Source: Nitrospirota bacterium (GTDB lineage: Bacteria > UBA2233). Taken from it: a stretch of 64,000 nt of DNA. The notes beneath the pieces were generated by a model that saw only the letters and a list, made by a program, of their open reading frames with translations, searched no databases and was not told the DNA's origin. Position numbers and translations under genes: made by a program. Of the stretch, positions 26,860 through 47,144 are shown piece by piece. The stretch covers positions 1-64,000 of the forward strand of contig WOZJ01000071.1 of assembly GCA_011620345.1 (NCBI GenBank). The letters run 5' to 3'. Each line of letters starts with the position of its first letter. Position 1 is the stretch's first letter.

Positions 26860-27093
26860 ATGGAAGAAGCCATGACAGAAAGGGTAATGGGCGTACTTGG
26901 GCGTATTCGGCCCATGCTCAACATGGATGGCGGCGACGTTGAGCTCGTCGAGGTCCGAAACCAAGAAGTTTATCTAAGGCTAAAGGGGGCTTGCGACGGG
27001 TGCCCGAGTGCATTCTTCACGCTACGGATGGGAATCGAACGAGCCCTTCGTTCGGAAATTCCAGAGATTCAACGGGTTATCGCTCTCCCTTGA
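26860..27093 (+). CDS. NifU C-terminal-domain (Nfu-type) Fe-S scaffold protein
   Basis: IRPMLNMDGGDVELVEV...LKGACDGCPSAFFTLRMGIERALRSEIPEI, CxxC motif. Confidence 0.9.
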   Translation: MEEAMTERVMGVLGRIRPMLNMDGGDVELVEVRNQEVYLRLKGACDGCPSAFFTLRMGIERALRSEIPEIQRVIALP

Positions 27094-27095
27094 AG

Positions 27096-28442
27096 ATGGA
27101 GCCCATTTTCTCCAACGAACGCTTGAATGACCTCGCTTCTTCTTCTTTTTTTTTGGCGTTGTCCGTTGAAGATGTGACCTTTGCTTTTGACGGGCCGAAC
27201 GGCCTGCACGAAAGGGTGTTTCCTTTTGATCCAATTCCTCGCTTAATTCCGCAAAATGAGTTTGATCGCCTGGAGGAAGGCATCAAGCAGCGGGTTGTTG
27301 CGATGAACATGTTTTTGCAAGATATTTACCATGAAGGAAAAATATTTAAGGATAAGGTGTTTTCGGAATCGTTTTTTCTCTCCTCTTCGGGGTATATGGT
27401 CGAAGCCAGGGGTATTACTCCGCCCAAGGGGGTGTTTCTCCACCTGTCGGGCATTGACCTCGTTCGGGCGGCCGATACATGGTTCGTGCTCGAGGACAAC
27501 CTAAGGATTCCTTCCGGTGTATCCTATGCACTTAAGGCCCGTGAGTTGTACGAAACCTGCATTCCCGATGTTCTGGCGGAACGGGGGACAAAAGAGACGC
27601 TGACCTTCTTGCAACACCTAGGTAAGGCTTTTTCGTCCGTGAACGCCGACGGGGAGGGAGTTATTCTCTCCCCGGGTAGACACAATGCGGCCTTCTTCGA
27701 GCACGGCTACTTGGCGGAATCGCTCGGGATGACCCTTGCGTTTGGGGAAGATTTGCTCGTCTATGGAGAAGATCTTTTCCTTAGGGGGTGTTTTGGGAAA
27801 AGGCATAAGGTTGGGTTTGTCTATAAAAGGCTCAACGACGAATATCTTGACCCTGTCATGTTCAACCCTGCCTCGGTGATAGGCGTCCCCAACATCTACC
27901 CAATTTACAAAAAAGGGAGGGTGGGGATTGGGAACGCGCTTGGGACCGGGGTGGCGGACGACAAGGGGGTTTTTTATTACACCCCCCAAATCATCCGCTA
28001 CTACTTAGGGCAAGACCCTATTCTTCCTTTGCCTCCCACCTACCTTCCGGAAGACCCGAAGGATGCAGCGTTCGTCCTTGAGAACATGGGCAGGCTCGTG
28101 ATCAAAGAGGTCAACTCGGCAGGAGGATTTGGTGTCCGCTTCGGCCCTAGGCTTACAAAAGCAGAGCTAGCGGAGTTAAAAGTGCGCATTGTCGCTTCCC
28201 CAAGGGGCTTTATTGCCCAGGAGCTTCTCGATTTTGAAGAACTTGACGTCCGCCTTCAAGATGGAACGTACGAGAAACGGCGGGCCGACTTGCGGATGTA
28301 TGCCGCTATGGGCGAGGACGTCTCCGTGCTCCAAGGCGGCTTGAGCCGATTTAGCGGCCAACGGGGATCTTACCTGGTAAATTCATGCCAAGGGGGAGGC
28401 TACAAGGATACATGGGTATACCAACCCGCACAGACTGCTTAA
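27096..28442 (+). CDS. Circularly permuted ATP-grasp protein (DUF404/DUF407 type)
   Basis: FLQDIYHEGKIFKD, DLVRAADTWFVLEDNLRIPSGVSYALKAR, NPASVIGVPNIYPIYKKGRVGIGNALGTGVADDKGVFYYTPQIIRYYLG, VIKEVNSAGGFGV; start placed at internal ATG 27096 just after nfu. Confidence 0.88.
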   Translation: MEPIFSNERLNDLASSSFFLALSVEDVTFAFDGPNGLHERVFPFDPIPRLIPQNEFDRLEEGIKQRVVAMNMFLQDIYHEGKIFKDKVFSESFFLSSSGYMVEARGITPPKGVFLHLSGIDLVRAADTWFVLEDNLRIPSGVSYALKARELYETCIPDVLAERGTKETLTFLQHLGKAFSSVNADGEGVILSPGRHNAAFFEHGYLAESLGMTLAFGEDLLVYGEDLFLRGCFGKRHKVGFVYKRLNDEYLDPVMFNPASVIGVPNIYPIYKKGRVGIGNALGTGVADDKGVFYYTPQIIRYYLGQDPILPLPPTYLPEDPKDAAFVLENMGRLVIKEVNSAGGFGVRFGPRLTKAELAELKVRIVASPRGFIAQELLDFEELDVRLQDGTYEKRRADLRMYAAMGEDVSVLQGGLSRFSGQRGSYLVNSCQGGGYKDTWVYQPAQTA

Positions 28443-29044
28443 ACCTTTTTTGGTTAGGTAGATATACAACCCGTACGCTCGGGACGCTCACGCTCGGGCT
28501 GGAGGTGCTTCGGTGCTTGGCGAGGGGGTTCCCTTGGCCGAAGGCATACGAAGGGCTGCTTGGTAGGCTCCCTTTGGCTCAAGAAGCCCTCCCTTGGTTC
28601 CTCGATACGGTTGTACGCCAAGAAGAACCTCCGGGTGTAGGGTTTGCCCTTAAGATGGCCAGGGAGGATGCCATCTGCCTGCGGGGTCTTTTGGGTACAA
28701 AGGCCGTCACGCTCGTGAACCTTGCCGGCCAAGAAGCCATGGCAATCCAAGAGTCGAACGTGCTGCAGGCCCCCCAAAGAATACTGGCTTTTGGAAATGC
28801 CTTGCTTGTTCATACCAAAGAGAGGCTCGGAGCGGAATGGGCCTGGATGTTTGAGCTTGGAGGATTCGTAGAAGCTCTCGATTTGCGCTTAAGCGTTCTG
28901 GATATGGAAGGAGCCCTGCATGCTGCCTCGCGGCTTAACGGCCTTTTCCAGGAAAACGGGCTTGCGATTGCGCCGTTGGAACAGCTAACGTTGCCCTCTT
29001 TAGAGGAGAAGGTTCATGCCTTTGAGCGCATGCTATCTGTTTAA
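28385..29044 (+). CDS. Alpha-E domain protein
   Basis: NLFWLGRYTTRTLGTLTLGLEVLRCLARG; directly follows the circularly permuted ATP-grasp gene, its usual neighbour. Confidence 0.75.
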   Translation: MPRGRLQGYMGIPTRTDCLNLFWLGRYTTRTLGTLTLGLEVLRCLARGFPWPKAYEGLLGRLPLAQEALPWFLDTVVRQEEPPGVGFALKMAREDAICLRGLLGTKAVTLVNLAGQEAMAIQESNVLQAPQRILAFGNALLVHTKERLGAEWAWMFELGGFVEALDLRLSVLDMEGALHAASRLNGLFQENGLAIAPLEQLTLPSLEEKVHAFERMLSV

Positions 29045-29840
29045 GTCGACCACGCGGCTTACGATTGCAGCCCCTGCAAGAGAGCACCACTTCCTTCTGC
29101 GTATCCTTCCCAAATCCATGCCTTGCATGATTTTGTCAGAATGGGAACTTTCAATCGAGGCTGCGGACTATGTTTCGGCCTTTGAGGATGCCTTTGGCAA
29201 TCGGGTTTTTTATGGGGCCGTTCTAGGCGAGCATGCTCAGCTTGTTGCCAGTGTTTGGGGGAAGGTTTTGCAGAGGAATGAGTACTGGGACGACGACGTC
29301 CAAGGACTAGGACTGTTTTGTCTTCCCTCGCCGATGGTCGGCCCAAGCGAAGCCTTGGATGGGCTTGTAGCCGCAATGACGCCCGCATTCCGCAAGCTTC
29401 AAACTCGAGAAGGAATGCTTTTCTTGAACGATGCCGTCTTTCGCCAGCTTGTCTACGAAAAATGCGTAACAAACTCCGAAACGGACGCGGGCGAGGCGCT
29501 TTCTAGGGGCAAGGGGGTCTGTCAGGATTTCGCGCACATCTTGATCGGCCTTCTCCGCGGGCTTGGAGTGCCAGCGCGATACGTGACAGGATACATAGAG
29601 GGCGAGGGCGATAGCCACGCCTGGGTCGAGGCGTTCCACGAAGGCCGATGGTATGGCTTAGACCCGACGCACAACACGTTCGTTAGGGAAGGGTACATTA
29701 AAGTGGCTCACGGGCGAGACGCCAAGGACACGCGGATGAATTCGGGAGTCTTCAAGGGCAAGTTTTCTCAATACGTCGAAGTTAATGTGCGCGTAGAGAT
29801 GCTGGAAACGGACGATGCTCGAGACCTGGTTCACGCTTAA
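29016..29840 (+). CDS. Transglutaminase-like cysteine protease
   Basis: GKGVCQDFAHILIGLLRGLGVPARYVTGYIEGEGDSHAWVEAFHEGRWYGLDPTHN gives the Cys-His-Asp triad. Confidence 0.9.
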   Translation: MPLSACYLFKSTTRLTIAAPAREHHFLLRILPKSMPCMILSEWELSIEAADYVSAFEDAFGNRVFYGAVLGEHAQLVASVWGKVLQRNEYWDDDVQGLGLFCLPSPMVGPSEALDGLVAAMTPAFRKLQTREGMLFLNDAVFRQLVYEKCVTNSETDAGEALSRGKGVCQDFAHILIGLLRGLGVPARYVTGYIEGEGDSHAWVEAFHEGRWYGLDPTHNTFVREGYIKVAHGRDAKDTRMNSGVFKGKFSQYVEVNVRVEMLETDDARDLVHA

Positions 29841-30762
29841 CCTGCCAACCCGCGAAACGGTTGCCCTTCAAAGGCAGCGCTTTTTTCCCGAGGGTACGGA
29901 GGGGTCTTTTAAGCACCTAAAAAGGCTTTCGGTTCTATCCGGAATTCACGGAGATGAGCTGGAAGGGCTCTACATCTGCTACCGCCTCGCCTCCTTCCTT
30001 AAGGAAAACCCTCAGGCGATCCGGGGGGTCATCGACATCTATCCAAGCTTGAACCCTTTGGGGGTGAGCATGACCCGGCGGTTCGTCCCGTTCTTCGAGA
30101 TGGATTTGAACCGCGTGTTTCCAGGGGATTCGTTTGGGAGCCTGCCCGAAAAGATGGCGCATGCGGCAGTCCATGCGGTAAGCGGCTCGAATATTGCTGT
30201 TGATTTGCATGCAAGCAACATTTTTTTAAAGGAAATCCCTCAAGTTCGGATCGACGAGGGAAACACATCAAAGCTTTTACCCTTAGCCAAGCTTTTGAAC
30301 GTAGACTTTGTTTGGGTATACCCTTCTGTTACCGTGCTCCGCTCAACATTGGCCCATACGCTCAACGCCATAGGCGTACGCACGCTCGTGGTCGAGATGG
30401 GGGTCGGGCTTCGGGTAACTCCCGTTTTCGGAGATCAGCTCGTTTCAGGTCTTCTCCATTTGATGGCCCATGAAGGGTTCCTTTCGCTCGATTCTCCGCC
30501 CGAAGTGCGCGAGCCCATTGTTTCTATAAACGAGCAAGTTTACTTTATAAATGCCGGCTGTTCCGGCCTGTTTATTCCCGGAGCAGACCATGGGGGAAGG
30601 ATAGGAAAAGAAGAGGTGATCGGGCAAATCGTATCCCCCTTTACGGGAGAGGGGCTGGAGACGCTAAGGAGCCCGGCAGATGGCCTTTTGTTCACACTTC
30701 GGGCCTATCCGATCGTGTTCGAGGGCTCGTTGGTCGCCAGGGTCTGCGCACTGGAGGGCTAA
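29815..30762 (+). CDS. Succinylglutamate desuccinylase/aspartoacylase-like zinc metallohydrolase (paralog 1)
   Basis: LSGIHGDELEGLYICYRLASFL, NPLGVSMTRRFVPFFEMDLNRVFPG, IAVDLHASNIFLKEIPQVRI. Confidence 0.82.
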   Translation: MLETWFTLNLPTRETVALQRQRFFPEGTEGSFKHLKRLSVLSGIHGDELEGLYICYRLASFLKENPQAIRGVIDIYPSLNPLGVSMTRRFVPFFEMDLNRVFPGDSFGSLPEKMAHAAVHAVSGSNIAVDLHASNIFLKEIPQVRIDEGNTSKLLPLAKLLNVDFVWVYPSVTVLRSTLAHTLNAIGVRTLVVEMGVGLRVTPVFGDQLVSGLLHLMAHEGFLSLDSPPEVREPIVSINEQVYFINAGCSGLFIPGADHGGRIGKEEVIGQIVSPFTGEGLETLRSPADGLLFTLRAYPIVFEGSLVARVCALEG

Positions 30763-31688
30763 TGGTACGAGAAATCTTGGTTCAAATGACTTCGCCGGCC
30801 GGCTATCCGATTCACGTCGTCGGGTTTCGGTTTGGGGAGGGTAGGCCAAAGGTGGCTATCGTGGGCGGCCTTAGGGGCGACGAGGTCCATCAAAGCTACG
30901 TGGTCGCACGGCTATGCGCCTTCTTGAGGCGGGAGGCCGAAAGGAACCCCGGCGTTATTCAAGGGGAAATTCTCCTCGTTCCGCTAGTCAACACCTTCGG
31001 GTTCAACGTGGGGTATCGCTTCTGGCCCCCGGATGCAACCGATATTGACAAAATGTTCCCTGGTTTTCGCTTCGGAGAGACCACACAGATTCTTGCCTAT
31101 TCACTGTTTGAAAAGCTCAAGGATGCCGACTTCGGCGTGCACGTCACAAGCCTTGATCCCCATCAAGAGCACATGGCCCTCACGACGATGTACGGGTCTG
31201 GCTTGGGGAATATCGAGGCGGGGTCGTATTTTGGAACCCATTTCTTGTACGTGAAGGATCCGAAACCCTTCGATACAGGATCTCTTTTGTACAACTGGCA
31301 AGTCTGGGACGTTCGTGCCCTTGGCTTGGTCGGGGGCAAGCCTTCAGAAATCCAACAAGACCTTGCCCTCGAACAAACAACGGCCATTCTTCGGTTTCTT
31401 TCCAAGGTTGGAGTCTTGAAGTTAAGGGTCCCGGAGCGCTTCAGCCCCGTTTTGCTCGAAGAGGCAGATTTGCTGCTTGTCCGGAACAGGCACTCTGGGC
31501 TTTTTTTGCCCCTCAAGGCTCCAGGGTGCGGAGTGTTCGAAGGGGAGACGTTAGGCTGGGTCCGGGATACGCTTACCGGTGAACCGCTCGAAGAGCTCCA
31601 AAGCCCATCCCTAGGAACCGTATTCTTTCGGTATGCCCGTCCCGCAATTTTTGAAGAGGAGGTGGCTTTCGGGGTTGCAACCCGCTGA
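30762..31688 (+). CDS. Succinylglutamate desuccinylase/aspartoacylase-like metallohydrolase (paralog 2)
   Basis: IVGGLRGDEVHQSYVVARLCAFL, VPLVNTFGFNVGYRFWPPDATDIDKMFPG, FGVHVTSLDPHQEHM; starts at the stop of paralog 1. Confidence 0.75.
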   Translation: MVREILVQMTSPAGYPIHVVGFRFGEGRPKVAIVGGLRGDEVHQSYVVARLCAFLRREAERNPGVIQGEILLVPLVNTFGFNVGYRFWPPDATDIDKMFPGFRFGETTQILAYSLFEKLKDADFGVHVTSLDPHQEHMALTTMYGSGLGNIEAGSYFGTHFLYVKDPKPFDTGSLLYNWQVWDVRALGLVGGKPSEIQQDLALEQTTAILRFLSKVGVLKLRVPERFSPVLLEEADLLLVRNRHSGLFLPLKAPGCGVFEGETLGWVRDTLTGEPLEELQSPSLGTVFFRYARPAIFEEEVAFGVATR

Positions 31689-41000: not shown

Positions 41001-41118
41001 CGCTTGCCTTCCTAAAAGGAGGTATGTAACAATAGGCAACGAATATAACCAGCACAAGGGATGAAGCGCTTTGAGAACAGCACCCATTCCGACTAGAAAT
41101 ACCTTGATCCATGGGATA

Positions 41119-42573
41119 ATGTACCCTGTCGTCCTCCTGTGCGCAATCGTCTTGGTTCAAGCCCAAGCTTCTGCCCGCTCGTTTTACGAGCAAGGCTATC
41201 GCATGGCGAAGACGCTCTCTCCGGCGTATTCCACGCTCGCTTCCCAGCTCAAGGAGGAGGCGGAACCGGATGCATGGAGCAGGGCGATTGCAATGGCCCG
41301 GCGCCACGAAGCGACGCTTGCCCGTTACTTCCCAGAGCAGCTCGAAAGGCTAAGGGGCATGTCCACGGCTATCGGCACAAATCCAACGGAGACGATCGCC
41401 CTTTCGATGTTCTTGAACCGCGGACAGCAGTGTGCCCAGGGGGCGAGCGCCCCTCCGGCCACGAAAGACGGCCAGGTGTACTTGACATGGAACTTCGAGA
41501 CGCTCACGGCAGCAAGGCCTTTATTCATCCTGCCTCTCTTTTCGATCGTCGAAAACCAAGAAGGCTATAAGTTTTGCTTTCTTGGCTTGCCGTATTTCTT
41601 CGGTGTTCCCTTGATGAACGAGAAGGGCCTTTCGCTGTCGGCCGCCTCGATGACGATAAACGAGGACGGGGAGGGCCTTACGCCCTTCGAGCTGGCCGTT
41701 TTGGTAATGGAAAGGGCCGCAAACGTGGATGAGGCCGTGGAGATTTCCAAAGCGATGCCCCGATACTCGACCTCTGACATCTACTGGGGCAACTGGATGA
41801 ACTGGAGCTTCACCCTGGCCGATGCCCAGGAGAACGTGGCGACTATCGAGATGACAACCACGCTTTTCGAGGAGGTTCGCCCGAAAAACAAGATCGTTGC
41901 GCGTGCCAACCACTACGACTACCTGCCAGACGAGATGACAACCTGTTATCCCCTGGCCCCGCAGTATTCCAAAGGCGAGGCCTCGGCCTGCTTCGGCTCA
42001 AGGATGCGGGCCTCGAGGATGTGGAGGCTTTTGGAGGACAACTACGGGAACATCGACTTGGAACTGGTCAAGACATTCCCCGCGGACACTAAAGGCGGGG
42101 AGCCGTTCATGGGCAGGCCCTCGGGCACATGGTGGACGATCGAGCGGCACAGCCACACGTTGCCACGCGACCAGTCCGTCTGGAACGACGTCCCCTACAA
42201 CCCCCAGGTCGATATAGATTACGTCATCGAGCAGTTCAACCTCGTCTACGAGCCCAAGCGGCGAGTGCTTTGGTGGTCTTCTGGCCATGCCTCCAGGGGG
42301 TACTTCACCCCGATATTTCTTGCCCCATGGTTTGGCGTGGAGGGCCCAACGATCGAGACCTACCAAGGACCCCAGAAGAACTACGCAAGGGTGCTGAACA
42401 GCTGGGTGAAGGTTTCAGACGAGTTTTTTGGGCTTGCGGAAGTTGTGCTTGGGCTTGGGGCCAGGACAGCCCAGCTTTTCGGGTATACGGCCGGCATTGA
42501 ACCTAACGAGGGCTCGGTTGCATTGGGTGCCTTTAGGCCCTATGGAACCGAAACGCCAAGTGTTGCAGAATAA
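41119..42573 (+). CDS. Exported C45-like (acyl-CoA:6-APA acyltransferase-type) Ntn hydrolase, paralog 1
   Basis: Signal-peptide-like MYPVVLLCAIVLVQAQASA; QQCAQGASAPPATKDGQVYLTWNFET resembles the C45 nucleophile region; MNEKGLSLSAASM. Confidence 0.7.
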   Translation: MYPVVLLCAIVLVQAQASARSFYEQGYRMAKTLSPAYSTLASQLKEEAEPDAWSRAIAMARRHEATLARYFPEQLERLRGMSTAIGTNPTETIALSMFLNRGQQCAQGASAPPATKDGQVYLTWNFETLTAARPLFILPLFSIVENQEGYKFCFLGLPYFFGVPLMNEKGLSLSAASMTINEDGEGLTPFELAVLVMERAANVDEAVEISKAMPRYSTSDIYWGNWMNWSFTLADAQENVATIEMTTTLFEEVRPKNKIVARANHYDYLPDEMTTCYPLAPQYSKGEASACFGSRMRASRMWRLLEDNYGNIDLELVKTFPADTKGGEPFMGRPSGTWWTIERHSHTLPRDQSVWNDVPYNPQVDIDYVIEQFNLVYEPKRRVLWWSSGHASRGYFTPIFLAPWFGVEGPTIETYQGPQKNYARVLNSWVKVSDEFFGLAEVVLGLGARTAQLFGYTAGIEPNEGSVALGAFRPYGTETPSVAE

Positions 42574-42586
42574 AAAAAGGGGGAGC

Positions 42587-44023
42587 ATGTACAGTATGCG
42601 GTTAATTTGCCGATACGGATGTTTTGCGGTGGGTCTGATTCTTGCCCTGGCGCACACAGGAAACGCCACCCCTTTCTTTGAAGAGGGTGTCACGCTAGGA
42701 AGGAGCTTCAAAGAGGCTTACCGTTCGTTCGCTGAAGATGCCAAGGCGTCGGGCTTAAACGAGCAGGCCTCGGCGCTTAGCCAGGGGCATATTCAAGACC
42801 TTGCCAGCTACTACCCGGAATACCTAGAAAGGCTTGAGGGTATTTCGGAGTCCTCCGGGGTTCCGACCGAAGATCTCGTAAAGGCCAGTTTCGTCTTGGC
42901 GTTAGGTCCAAAGTGTGCCCAGTCGGGTGCCGCCCCGCCCGCCACGAACGACGGCCAGGTGTATCTTTCCTGGAACTTCGAGTCCGCGCTTTTGGCCAGG
43001 CCGATCTTTTCGATTCCATTCTTTAGCGTGCTCGAGCCAAAAAACGGCTACAAGACGTTCTTTTGGGGCATTCCTTACCTGATCGGCGTCGCGATCATGA
43101 ACGAAAAGGGGCTATCGCTCGCCGCCTCTGCCATGAACTACGACGACGACGGGACGGGGCTTACCTCGTTCGAGCTTGCCAGCATGGCGATGGAGCGCTG
43201 CGCCACGATTCCCGAAGTGACCGAACTTTTGGGCTCGGTACCTCGGTTTTCCACCTCCGACCCAACATTCGGGGCGTCGATCAACTGGACGTTTTCGATG
43301 GCGGACGAGCAGGGTAACGTGGCCATGATAGAGTTCACTCACAGCTATTTAAAGTGGGACTACGGCGAAAATGGGATTGTCGGGAGAGCCAACACCTACC
43401 AGCTCCTGCCTTTAGAGAAGACGACCTGCATATCAACGTCGAAGTACTTCACGCCAGACATGGCGCTCGCTTGCTGGGGGGCGGATATGCGGGCCCTTAG
43501 GATGTGGGAATTGGTACGCACAAACTACGGCAACATTGACCTGGAAGCGATGAAGCGTTTCACTGCGGACACAAACGGGGGAACGGATTTCCTTGGCAGG
43601 CCCGCCGGCTCTTGGTGGACGCCGGAGCGTCATGGCCAGACCTTGCCCGAGGACCTTGCCCGTTTCCAGGGCACGCCCTACATACCGATCATTATGGACT
43701 TCGGCTACGTGATTACCCATACGGTGTTCATCTACGAGCCCAAAAGAAAGATTATCTGGTGGACGCCAGGACATACCTCGAGAATCGGGCATATCCCCCT
43801 CTTCGCAGGTGAGCTGATGGGGGTCCAGGGAGCCGCCAGGATCGAGGATTACCAAGGACCGGCCCGCAACGCGGCTAGGGTCGTCCACTCTTTTTCCGGT
43901 GTGGCCCAAGCGTTGGGCGGCTCGATCGGGTTGATTGCAGGGCAGTTCTTCCAGGCAATCAACGGCAGGGATGTTTCGCCCGGCTATCCTGGCCTTTACT
44001 CGACCCAATTGGGGAGCCAGTAA
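42587..44023 (+). CDS. Exported C45-like Ntn hydrolase, paralog 2
   Basis: RBS AAGGGGGAGC before ATG 42587; signal-like CRYGCFAVGLILALAHTGNA; PKCAQSGAAPPATNDGQVYLSWNFES; extensive similarity to paralog 1 along the whole length. Confidence 0.72.
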   Translation: MYSMRLICRYGCFAVGLILALAHTGNATPFFEEGVTLGRSFKEAYRSFAEDAKASGLNEQASALSQGHIQDLASYYPEYLERLEGISESSGVPTEDLVKASFVLALGPKCAQSGAAPPATNDGQVYLSWNFESALLARPIFSIPFFSVLEPKNGYKTFFWGIPYLIGVAIMNEKGLSLAASAMNYDDDGTGLTSFELASMAMERCATIPEVTELLGSVPRFSTSDPTFGASINWTFSMADEQGNVAMIEFTHSYLKWDYGENGIVGRANTYQLLPLEKTTCISTSKYFTPDMALACWGADMRALRMWELVRTNYGNIDLEAMKRFTADTNGGTDFLGRPAGSWWTPERHGQTLPEDLARFQGTPYIPIIMDFGYVITHTVFIYEPKRKIIWWTPGHTSRIGHIPLFAGELMGVQGAARIEDYQGPARNAARVVHSFSGVAQALGGSIGLIAGQFFQAINGRDVSPGYPGLYSTQLGSQ

Positions 44024-44027
44024 CGGG

Positions 44028-44558
44028 TTGGAATATCTAAGGCCCGCACGGTACGCGGACCTTGAGCTTTTGGCGCGCACCGGACGCGAAGACCCGGTGC
44101 GCGCCTTTTTCCTTGATTTTCGGGGCGATCTGGACCCTGCCCCTTTTTCGCGCCTCCGCGGAGCGTTTAGGGAAGAGCTTTTAAAGGGCAGCTCAAGCAG
44201 GCTGCTGGTTGTTCGAGCCGCATCTTCTCCGCTCCCAGAGGCCTTCGTGTTGGTTAGCTTTTTTGAGGGAATCGAAGGGGACTGCTTTCTAAAGGCCTTG
44301 CCTTGCATGGAGAACCTCGAAACCAAAGCCCTGCTAGACGGGCTAAAAGAGCTTTTAAATTATATTTTTCTATCAAGAAACCGCCACCGGGCCATGGCTC
44401 AATTCCTGGGCTGCGAAGAGCCCTTGCTTGGGCTGTTTGAGAAGCTAGGCTTTATTCAAGAGGGCAGAAGGCGCGAGGAGGTGTACGCCCGAGGGCGATT
44501 TTACGACGTCATCCCTCTTAGCATGACACAAAGCCGCTTTCTTGCTCAAAATTCATGA
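44028..44558 (+). CDS. GNAT-like acetyltransferase (TTG start proposed)
   Basis: LEYLRPARYADLELLARTGREDPVRAFFLDF; terminal EKLGFIQEGRRREEVYARGRFYDVIPLSM is a typical GNAT C-terminus. Confidence 0.65.
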   Translation: MEYLRPARYADLELLARTGREDPVRAFFLDFRGDLDPAPFSRLRGAFREELLKGSSSRLLVVRAASSPLPEAFVLVSFFEGIEGDCFLKALPCMENLETKALLDGLKELLNYIFLSRNRHRAMAQFLGCEEPLLGLFEKLGFIQEGRRREEVYARGRFYDVIPLSMTQSRFLAQNS

Positions 44559-45127
44559 GAACCGGAAAATTCGTCCTACTTCGAAAGCCAGAAGAGGATG
44601 ACCTCGATTTCCTTCTGGCCGTCTTCCAGGATCCAGACTATCGCCGCTTTATCGGAGGCGACCCCTTGGAGAGAGAAAAGCGGCTCAAGGACCAAATCCT
44701 CCGTGCGGCCCAGGGGCTTTTTTCTTACGATGCAAACCTTTATGCGATCGTTTGCCGACTGAAAGACGGCCGCAGGGTTGGCTGCATATTTTTCAACAAG
44801 GTCTCCTGGCGAAACCGTAACGCGACGCTAGACGTGTTCTTTCTAAAGGAAGAACGCGCCACGATGGCCGTCATGGACGCCTACGTGGCGGCCATCGAAT
44901 ACGCATTTTTGGACTTGGGCCTCCATAAGGTGATCGGCTACGTCTACGCGTTCAACGAAAGGCTCGTCAAGATCCACAAAAAGCTGGGGATTCAGATCGA
45001 GCAGCGGCTGATCGAGCACGTCTACCGGGACGGGCGCTACCACGATGTCCTGGCCTTCGGGATGCTCGAGCCGGAGTTTCGTGAGCTTACGAAAAAGCCC
45101 TTCTACAAGTTCCTGCGCGGCGGATAA
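44555..45127 (+). CDS. GNAT-family N-acetyltransferase (RimJ/RimL-like)
   Basis: MRTGKFVLLRKPEEDDLDFLLAVFQDPDYRRFIGG, LGLHKVIGYVYAFNERLVKIHKKLGIQIEQRLIEHVYRDGRYHDVLAFGML. Confidence 0.85.
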   Translation: MRTGKFVLLRKPEEDDLDFLLAVFQDPDYRRFIGGDPLEREKRLKDQILRAAQGLFSYDANLYAIVCRLKDGRRVGCIFFNKVSWRNRNATLDVFFLKEERATMAVMDAYVAAIEYAFLDLGLHKVIGYVYAFNERLVKIHKKLGIQIEQRLIEHVYRDGRYHDVLAFGMLEPEFRELTKKPFYKFLRGG

Positions 45128-46716
45128 TGGCCTACGAGGACCTCTACGTGTTTACGGTTGAGGAAGAACCCTTCGCGTTTCATACGAAAACGGCCTTCCT
45201 CGTGCAGCTGGACGCTCCGACGGCGAGGTTTTTAAACCTTCGAGGTGACGCGAGTGCCTTCTTAGAAGAATTCCCCGGGCAGGTCTTGAACGAGTGCATG
45301 GGGGCACTCTCCGGTCTATACGAAGACGACCTTCTCCCAAAAGAGCTGGAGATTGAAGAGCGCAAGAGCCCTAAAAACCCCCGTTGGGTGCTGGATCTAG
45401 CGTCCATCCAAGACCCGCTCTTCGTGCTCGGTGCCACCTTGAAGGCGACTGCCGCCTTAAGCCCAAGCCAAAGCGCCCCGCTTGTTGTTGGAATGAGCGC
45501 AAAAGAGAGGATCGCCTCTTATCCATCTAAGACCCCTGGCGTAGTTTTTGGTGTCCATGAGACAGAAGGAGTGTTTCGGTTTCCCTCGGGTTCAAACCCG
45601 ATGGATGCCGTATTGTGTCTGGAAACATTCGAGCCTGCACTTATCCAGAGACTGTTTCGCGAGGGTACTGGTAGAGTCTGGTTGGATTGGGGGGGATGGA
45701 TTCCAAGCCCCCCAAAAGGGCTCTTTGATGCCCTCGTTTCCCTTATGGGCTCTGTCTGGGAAGAAAACCCCAAAGCCATACTCGAGCCTTTATCCTCTTG
45801 GATCCGAGCCATGTACGAGGCCGTCCCCCCAGTTCACCCCCCCTGGATAGGGGTCTTGCTGCCAGGCCAGGATAAATCCTTGAGCCTCAAGGCCTCGCCT
45901 CGCGCCCCCGAATCGACGTTTGTCAGTCTGCAAGATGTCTTAGCCCTCTTAGGAGAGTCGGATACCTGCAAGCCCGTATGCAGGGCCTGCCCGATCCTAA
46001 AGCTTTGCCAAGGGGGGCATTGGGCGCCACGGCTGAAGAATGCGCAAGCCGGGTATCAAATCTCCCCTCCCGATCCAAAAGAGTGCGCCATTGCCTTCGA
46101 TGTGTTCCGCGCCGCCGTCGCCCTGTACGACCGGCTAGAACGCGAAGGGCTTTTGGAAATCCAGGCAGGAGACGCGCCAACCAAGAAGATGGAACGTTTC
46201 GCCTGGGGGACGCACGCTCTAAGTGCTCGCTTAATCACAGAAGAATCCTTCACCGAAGTGAGTCCTTTCCTTAAAAAAGCCTTTGACGACGGGATTTTCC
46301 TGGTTGAGCGATTTTTAGACCCCTCATGGAGAGAGGTTCAAAGGCTCCTTCAAGAAGATGAACCGAGGCGCAGGCTCGTTGTGCTAAGGAGCGGCGAGGG
46401 GGAGCCTTGCGGGTTTTTATGGGTTGCGGCGCTTGAGCAGGATTATAGGGCCGATGCATCGCTATGGCTCTCTGAGCACGCCTACGGGGTGCTTACGCCT
46501 TCTGTCCTAAAGGACTTCCTACGGGCGTTACTCAGGGACCTTGGCATAAGAAAGCTTAGCTTGTACGCCTTGACGGGGCATGCTAGGCTTGAAAGGTTGC
46601 TCGAGAACGCCGGAGCGGTACATGAAGGGGTGCTCCGTGAAGCCGCGTTTCTCGAAGGCGGCTTCCGGGACGTTGCCGTTTACGCATGCCTCGAGAAAAA
46701 ACTTGTAACAAAGTAG
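45127..46716 (+). CDS. Chimeric protein: RRE-like N-terminus, SPASM-like Cys cluster, C-terminal GNAT domain; no radical-SAM CxxxCxxC
   Basis: N-terminal YVFTVEEEPFAFHTKTAFLVQLDAPTARFLNL; CKPVCRACPILKLCQGGHW...KEC; C-terminal GIRKLSLYALTGHARLERLLENAGAVHEGVLREAAFLEGGFRDVAVYACLE. Confidence 0.55.
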   Translation: MAYEDLYVFTVEEEPFAFHTKTAFLVQLDAPTARFLNLRGDASAFLEEFPGQVLNECMGALSGLYEDDLLPKELEIEERKSPKNPRWVLDLASIQDPLFVLGATLKATAALSPSQSAPLVVGMSAKERIASYPSKTPGVVFGVHETEGVFRFPSGSNPMDAVLCLETFEPALIQRLFREGTGRVWLDWGGWIPSPPKGLFDALVSLMGSVWEENPKAILEPLSSWIRAMYEAVPPVHPPWIGVLLPGQDKSLSLKASPRAPESTFVSLQDVLALLGESDTCKPVCRACPILKLCQGGHWAPRLKNAQAGYQISPPDPKECAIAFDVFRAAVALYDRLEREGLLEIQAGDAPTKKMERFAWGTHALSARLITEESFTEVSPFLKKAFDDGIFLVERFLDPSWREVQRLLQEDEPRRRLVVLRSGEGEPCGFLWVAALEQDYRADASLWLSEHAYGVLTPSVLKDFLRALLRDLGIRKLSLYALTGHARLERLLENAGAVHEGVLREAAFLEGGFRDVAVYACLEKKLVTK

Positions 46717-46718
46717 CG

Positions 46719-47144
46719 TGTACAGTGCATTACAGGAAAGAAGAGCTTAAGTTTGCCGATAACGAGCAGCGGGTCGTCGCGGTTCATGAGCATCTCGTGG
46801 GCCTTGTGACGCAAGCGAGAAAAGCCCTGGAAAACAAAGAGCCACAAAGGCTCAAGAAGCTCCTCGATGCCGCGATGGATGCAGTGGCGACTCTCGACAT
46901 GCACCTGGATTTCCGGTCAAATCCGGCGTTTGCTGCTGCGATCCGTCGCTGGTACGCGTTTTGGACGCTTTGCATGATGGATGCACGCCAGGCGGAGGGC
47001 GAAAGCACAGCGGCCACCTTGCAAGAGCTCGAAGATTCTCTGAAGGAGTTCGTTCTCTCGCTTCGTGACGGCATGGTGCTTCGCAACGCTCCCGTCCCAG
47101 AGCAAAAAGGCTCGCAAAAAGGCGGTGTGTCGTTTAACGCCTAG
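46719..47144 (+). CDS. Small helical protein, possibly FliS-like
   Basis: GTG start 3 nt after the previous stop; helical pattern LVTQARKALENKEPQRLKKLLDAAMDAVATLDMHLD...AIRRWYAFWTLCMMDARQ...LQELEDSLKEFVLSLRDG; weak resemblance to FliS only. Confidence 0.4.
   Translation, partial: CTVHYRKEELKFADNEQRVVAVHEHLVGLVTQARKALENKEPQRLKKLLDAAMDAVATLDMHLDFRSNPAFAAAIRRWYAFWTLCMMDARQAEGESTAATLQELEDSLKEFVLSLRDGMVLRNAPVPEQKGSQKGGVSFNA

Follow-up and report, generated by a model that had tools for sequence, protein, structure and literature searches.

A 529-residue reading frame in the window, by which we mean the whole stretch of 64,000 nucleotides analysed here, carries two segments that resemble parts of a radical-SAM peptide maturase, followed by a GNAT-like domain. 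What is such a protein, and what could it do without a recognisable radical-SAM core? The frame, which we call the chimera, and its parts are as follows.

45127..46716, + strand: chimera ORF, 529 aa (docking N-terminus, diverged or replaced core, SPASM AuxII module, GNAT)
45136..45336, + strand: RRE-like leader-binding N-terminus of the radical-SAM/SPASM maturase type, residues 4-70 (hhalign, hmmsearch)
45379..45846, + strand: position of a radical-SAM barrel, residues 85-240; too short, no detectable barrel similarity
45958..46146, + strand: SPASM AuxII half, residues 278-340, with CX2CX5C (285, 288, 294), GGH298W, C320 and the following helix
45967..45990, + strand: literal CX3CX2C, C281-KPV-C285-RA-C288, formed by one more Cys placed four residues ahead of the AuxII CX2C
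46303..46698, + strand: GNAT domain of the RimJ/RimL type, residues 393-524 (phmmer, Pfam, NCBIfam), without the usual R/Q-x-x-G-x-G/A loop

Both genomes examined from the phylum (n=2) encode the chimera. The ortholog (L008:8001-9608, contig DDYN01000032.1, Nitrospirae bacterium UBA2233; 89-90% identity) was the single one given by the contig search, and no additional ortholog was found in 386 genomes. The 529-codon frame is unbroken in both genomes, with the same gene order on either side. Between the two orthologs dN/dS is 0.24 for the whole protein; the values for single domains, 0.12-0.32, are rough because few differences fall in each. Every domain is under purifying selection, and the highest value (0.32) is that of the GNAT. 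The chimera is a gene under selection and not debris. Because there are just two orthologs of ~90% identity, the family profiles are thin. Single-sequence matches were weak, a PDB sequence search with residues 1-358 returned no meaningful match, and PADLOC gave no match. The AlphaFold2 models were of low confidence, with a mean pLDDT of 35 (full length, one sequence) or 31 (residues 1-364, two sequences).

The maturase-like segments

The N-terminus was compared with those of 12 SCIFF/QhpD-type maturases, labels that we assigned from sequence and not from annotation. For residues 4-70, hhalign gave a probability of 81% and P 1.3e-5, and no shuffle did as well (0/200). When an N-terminal model of 11 maturases was run by hmmsearch against 392 ORFs, each of at least 80 aa, the chimera was found at E 0.0038, the ortholog at 5e-4 and the next ORF at 3.5, these ORF comparisons being, like the shuffle tests, small-scale in-house controls and not database-wide E-values. 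Both values stayed about the same when the closest maturase was taken out of the model. The RRE fold is a winged helix of three strands and three helices; in the chimera a low-confidence model (pLDDT <50) places strands at 6-11, 14-19 and 24-27 and helices at 42-48 and 50-65. In CteB, whose architecture is RRE, radical-SAM, SPASM, the N-terminal RRE binds the leader peptide (PMC6231123). The first-pass annotation had likened this N-terminus to the leader-binding N-termini of radical-SAM maturases, and homology supports reading residues 4-70 as RRE-like.

The resemblance of the cysteine segment to SPASM, also proposed there, holds up as well. The profile-profile comparison gave P 3.3e-4, which none of 150 shuffles reached. 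With a SPASM AuxII model of 48 radical-SAM/SPASM proteins the chimera scored E 1e-6 and the ortholog 8e-8, and nothing else among the 392 ORFs fell below E 3; when L064, an FxsB-like protein that had been found with the chimera as query, was left out of the model, the values were 4e-5 and 5e-6. The similarity runs beyond the Cys residues into the next helix. Shuffling the chimera protein produced CX2CX5CX15-38C in 99 of 200,000 trials, and in 1 of 200,000 once the GG motif was added. Among the 18,950 models of NCBIfam, TIGR04085 (SPASM) and TIGR04269 (FxsB) were the sole ones listed, both for residues 1-358 and for a 92-aa Cys fragment, the ortholog fragment being additionally listed with TIGR03942 (anaerobic sulfatase maturase); all these matches had E-values of 0.014-0.23 and lay under the curated cut-offs. 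In the whole genome TIGR04085 matches the chimera alone, at 14.3 bits against a cut-off of 27.

AhbD binds AuxII through the four Cys of CX2CX5CX20-38C, and a Cys right behind CX2CX5C is an AuxI ligand (PMC10452713). All four AuxII ligands (C285, C288, C294 and C320) are present in the chimera, spaced C285-X2-C288-X5-C294-X25-C320 (CX2CX5CX25C) and invariant in both orthologs. H298 occupies the AuxI Cys position of CX3C, and the upstream AuxI set (CX9-15GX4C; motif per PMC6231123) is absent from the chimera. With the AuxII motif kept, a His at the AuxI site and the upstream motif missing, the losses are those of the radical-SAM cluster and AuxI, and the ligand set for AuxII is complete. By sequence, the chimera contains a SPASM AuxII module.

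The middle region

It had been stated that no CxxxCxxC occurs in the ORF. This is wrong, since C281-KPV-C285-RA-C288 is literally CX3CX2C, though it lies at the SPASM position, 241 residues, mostly GNAT, from the C-terminus. The motif is invariant in both orthologs, and an extra Cys of the C281 type, four residues before CX2C, occurs in 0 of the 48 collected maturases. PF04055 (radical-SAM) gave 21 matches in the chimera's own genome at E<=1, the chimera not being one of them; judged from this and from the SPASM position, the motif at 281-288 is not a barrel motif. The chimera has no CX3CX2C just after residue 85, the usual place of the radical-SAM domain, and no Cys at residues ~95-102, where CX3CX2C is expected at the start of a barrel.

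From CX3CX2C to the AuxII CX2CX5C, each of the 48 intact relatives has a spacing of 285-338 aa; for the chimera the corresponding figure is ~190 aa. Between its N-terminal and SPASM modules the chimera is shorter than every one of the 48 by at least ~95 residues. Pfam and NCBIfam scans of the middle region gave no match, and the profile-profile comparison of residues 85-280 with the barrel of the relatives was at chance level (59 of 150 shuffles were equally good). For the latter reason DWGGWIP (187-193), picked out by eye as a GGEP-like barrel motif, was dropped and is not used as evidence. As a normal barrel would not fit into the middle region, which also bears no similarity to one, the core is, on these alignments, lost or replaced and not merely without its cysteines; the barrel would be either truncated beyond recognition or exchanged for something else. 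By the tests made here the chimera is not a radical-SAM enzyme.

The GNAT domain and its neighbours

The neighbouring genes that bear on the chimera are the following.

41071..42573, + strand: C45-type autoproteolytic acyltransferase/hydrolase 1 (NCBIfam NF040521 99.3 bits, above cut-off; Pfam AAT)
42518..44023, + strand: C45-type autoproteolytic acyltransferase/hydrolase 2 (NF040521 82 bits, cut-off 85; secreted, judged by eye)
43935..44558, + strand: GNAT paralog 1; true start probably ~44016; 4-nt overlap with GNAT paralog 2
44555..45127, + strand: GNAT paralog 2; 1-nt overlap with the start of the chimera; PseH the nearest model in NCBIfam
46725..47144, + strand: FliS, flagellin export chaperone (Pfam FliS E 2.6e-9, above cut-off)

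The C-terminus of the chimera had been called a GNAT. It is GNAT-like, with matches to 1nsl_A (phmmer, E 7.7e-4), in NCBIfam (E 0.0094) and to Pfam Acetyltransf_3 (E 0.061; 14.5 bits against a cut-off of 25.4), but the match is weak and the acetyl-CoA loop (motif A), WLSEHAYGVLTPSVL, has no G-x-G. The absence of G-x-G is no proof of a dead GNAT, since L004 and L007, RimL-type relatives in the same alignment, are likewise without the classical loop. GNAT paralogs 1 and 2 are similar to each other (E 2e-10) and to the chimera GNAT (E 8e-5 and 1e-3), so the locus has three GNAT paralogs. These related domains stand in series at 43935-46698, and by eye none has a canonical G-x-G loop. GNAT paralog 2 reached 38.6 bits with the PseH model (cut-off 93.1), and a search for NeuB, which tested the nonulosonate/PseH reading, gave one weak match.

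The two C45 genes, both GNAT paralogs, the chimera and FliS lie on the same strand, mostly overlapping or a few bases apart. If FliS starts with the GTG at 46725, it begins ~8 nt past the stop of the chimera. From this spacing we hypothesise that the chimera and FliS are co-transcribed; the flanking genes are so closely packed that a separate gene for a small precursor has little space in such an operon. With 38 bits, FliS matches its family weakly. It is probably a working chaperone, because it is the sole FliS found in the genome and a flagellin is encoded there; a link between the chimera and flagellin is a hypothesis that the gene order suggests. The FliS gene lies apart from any flagellar gene cluster seen. 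At the FliS loci of other genomes a GNAT was nearby in 1 of 30 and a SPASM-type protein in 0 of 30. In one unrelated genome (L124) a canonical GNAT adjoins FliS.

The C45 proenzymes at 41071-44023 are adjacent and 46% identical, and a third copy lies on contig C25; used as operon markers in 384 other genomes, the C45 neighbours matched nothing strongly. Farther upstream in the window, at 26991-31688, genes for a circularly permuted ATP-grasp, an alpha-E protein, a transglutaminase and two AstE/AspA-type proteins lie near Opp transporter genes, a block that resembles a peptide- or amide-ligase type cluster. A TIGR04085 search found no intact SPASM maturase elsewhere in the genome (97% complete), and thus no partner radical-SAM enzyme of the SPASM type is evident.

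Proposed origin, alternatives and known systems

The first-pass annotation left open whether the chimera is a decayed or a repurposed radical-SAM maturase. With a dN/dS of 0.24 and no change in any SPASM ligand, we favour repurposed; a simple loss of cysteines does not agree with a region at least ~95 residues short. With the two module homologies, the GNAT relationship, the conservation and the gene order computed, we consider the chances about evenly divided that the chimera is a remodelled trimodular maturase (RRE, barrel, SPASM) whose docking end and AuxII module, joined to a GNAT, steer acyl transfer. Its N-terminal and SPASM modules, which stand in maturase order, would derive from a radical-SAM/SPASM peptide maturase of this type. 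Remodelling would have kept the docking N-terminus and the full set of AuxII ligands, with the AuxI ligands and a recognisable core gone, and the GNAT would have been gained, probably out of the neighbouring GNAT duplications.

Cluster binding, docking, acyl transfer and the substrate are what we infer for the working protein. The N-terminal module may bind a peptide or a protein tail, the SPASM module, with one [4Fe-4S] or another metal, may keep the docking end aligned with the GNAT domain, which in turn may acylate the substrate so bound. As the chimera gene runs straight into the sole FliS gene, the first candidate substrate would be flagellin or another protein handled by FliS. The full version, in which the docking and Fe-S modules of a maturase now steer non-radical acyl transfer onto flagellin via FliS, is a long shot. 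Against the remodelled-maturase reading itself stand the 29 of 30 other FliS loci that have no GNAT nearby, a middle third that it leaves unexplained, and a GNAT that may not be active, its acetyl-CoA loop not being canonical.

The same loop, WLSEHAYGVLTPSVL, together with the missing core and the GNAT having the highest dN/dS among the domains, speaks for the strongest rival, a non-enzymatic scaffold or sensor in which the homologies are right, the radical-SAM core is gone and the GNAT is dead. Such a protein would bind peptide and metal and regulate its neighbours, for instance FliS-dependent flagellin export. We hold this to be rather unlikely, though a serious contender: the classical loop is also missing in L004 and L007, and constraint persists on all domains. 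Could the N-terminal likeness instead be chance and the Cys segment a zinc ribbon or knuckle of other descent, so that the protein is an ordinary GNAT extended in this lineage? Raw NCBIfam scores under every curated cut-off, a middle region without any match and the lack of a confident structure model would agree with that. We think it improbable, as two independent models each select the chimera and its ortholog alone among the 392 ORFs, with a wide gap, neither model reports as significant the other Cys-rich ORFs of the window (topoisomerase I zinc fingers, an OppD-type C-terminus), and the SPASM similarity is not confined to the Cys residues.

A decaying pseudogene of a radical-SAM maturase, accidentally fused to a GNAT, would account for the lost barrel and AuxI and for a protein known from one genus alone; it was rejected on the dN/dS of 0.24, and the frame intact in two genomes, the invariant SPASM ligands and the conserved gene order make it very improbable too. 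Hardly credible at all is an unusual radical-SAM enzyme with its SAM cluster on the invariant CX3CX2C at 281-288, as PF04055 does not match the chimera, the SPASM CX2CX5C lies partly on this motif, and what follows the motif up to the GNAT is not of barrel size.

If the flagellin version is true, RiPP-type machinery has been turned into a dedicated protein acyltransferase. On the remodelled-maturase reading, the chimera would show docking and auxiliary-cluster parts of a maturase surviving the loss of radical chemistry. What the AuxII cluster does has been called unclear (PMC9012708). In a natural AuxII-only protein without a radical-SAM core, the structural and redox roles of this cluster would be experimentally separable.

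The C-terminal domain and the two neighbouring paralogs are like RimJ/RimL-type GNATs and PseH, from which the chimera differs in its non-canonical motif A loop and in the fusion of the GNAT to a SPASM module. NCBIfam includes pseudo-rSAM/SPASM families and a stand-alone GeoRSP SPASM protein, relatives of maturases that have no working CX3CX2C or have SPASM without a barrel. We know of no GNAT fusion among them, and none of their models was listed in the NCBIfam scan of the chimera fragment (E<=10). Our literature search found no paper on pseudo-rSAM proteins and none joining a SPASM domain protein with an acetyltransferase fusion.

The FxsB family (TIGR04269) has the SPASM segment closest to that of the chimera, CRACP(I/L)L..C.GGH(W/Y)A.R, with His and not Cys after GG. 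A search of 386 genomes with the 1-364 profile gave, as its best plausible non-self match, the FxsB-like radical-SAM/SPASM protein L064 (CRACPLLTVCGGGHYAHR against CRACPILKLCQGGHWAPR), which, unlike the chimera, has an intact CX3CX2C barrel, another C-terminal context and no GNAT. Like the AhbD heme synthases of non-methanogenic archaea, the chimera keeps the AuxII CX2CX5CX20-38C without AuxI ligands; AhbD, in contrast, has an intact radical-SAM domain and serves heme synthesis, and no RRE-like module or GNAT is described for it (PMC10452713). As in SCIFF (CteB type) and QhpD-like maturases, a peptide-binding N-terminus is followed by SPASM, and both segments match, whereas the chimera lacks a recognisable barrel and the AuxI ligands, is short of at least ~95 residues between the modules and has a GNAT added. 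The chimera is real and is a variant of the SPASM-type peptide maturases; with a docking end and one putative Fe-S site kept, the recognisable core lost and a GNAT-type domain carried, it has the look of peptide-modifying machinery remade to carry out another reaction.
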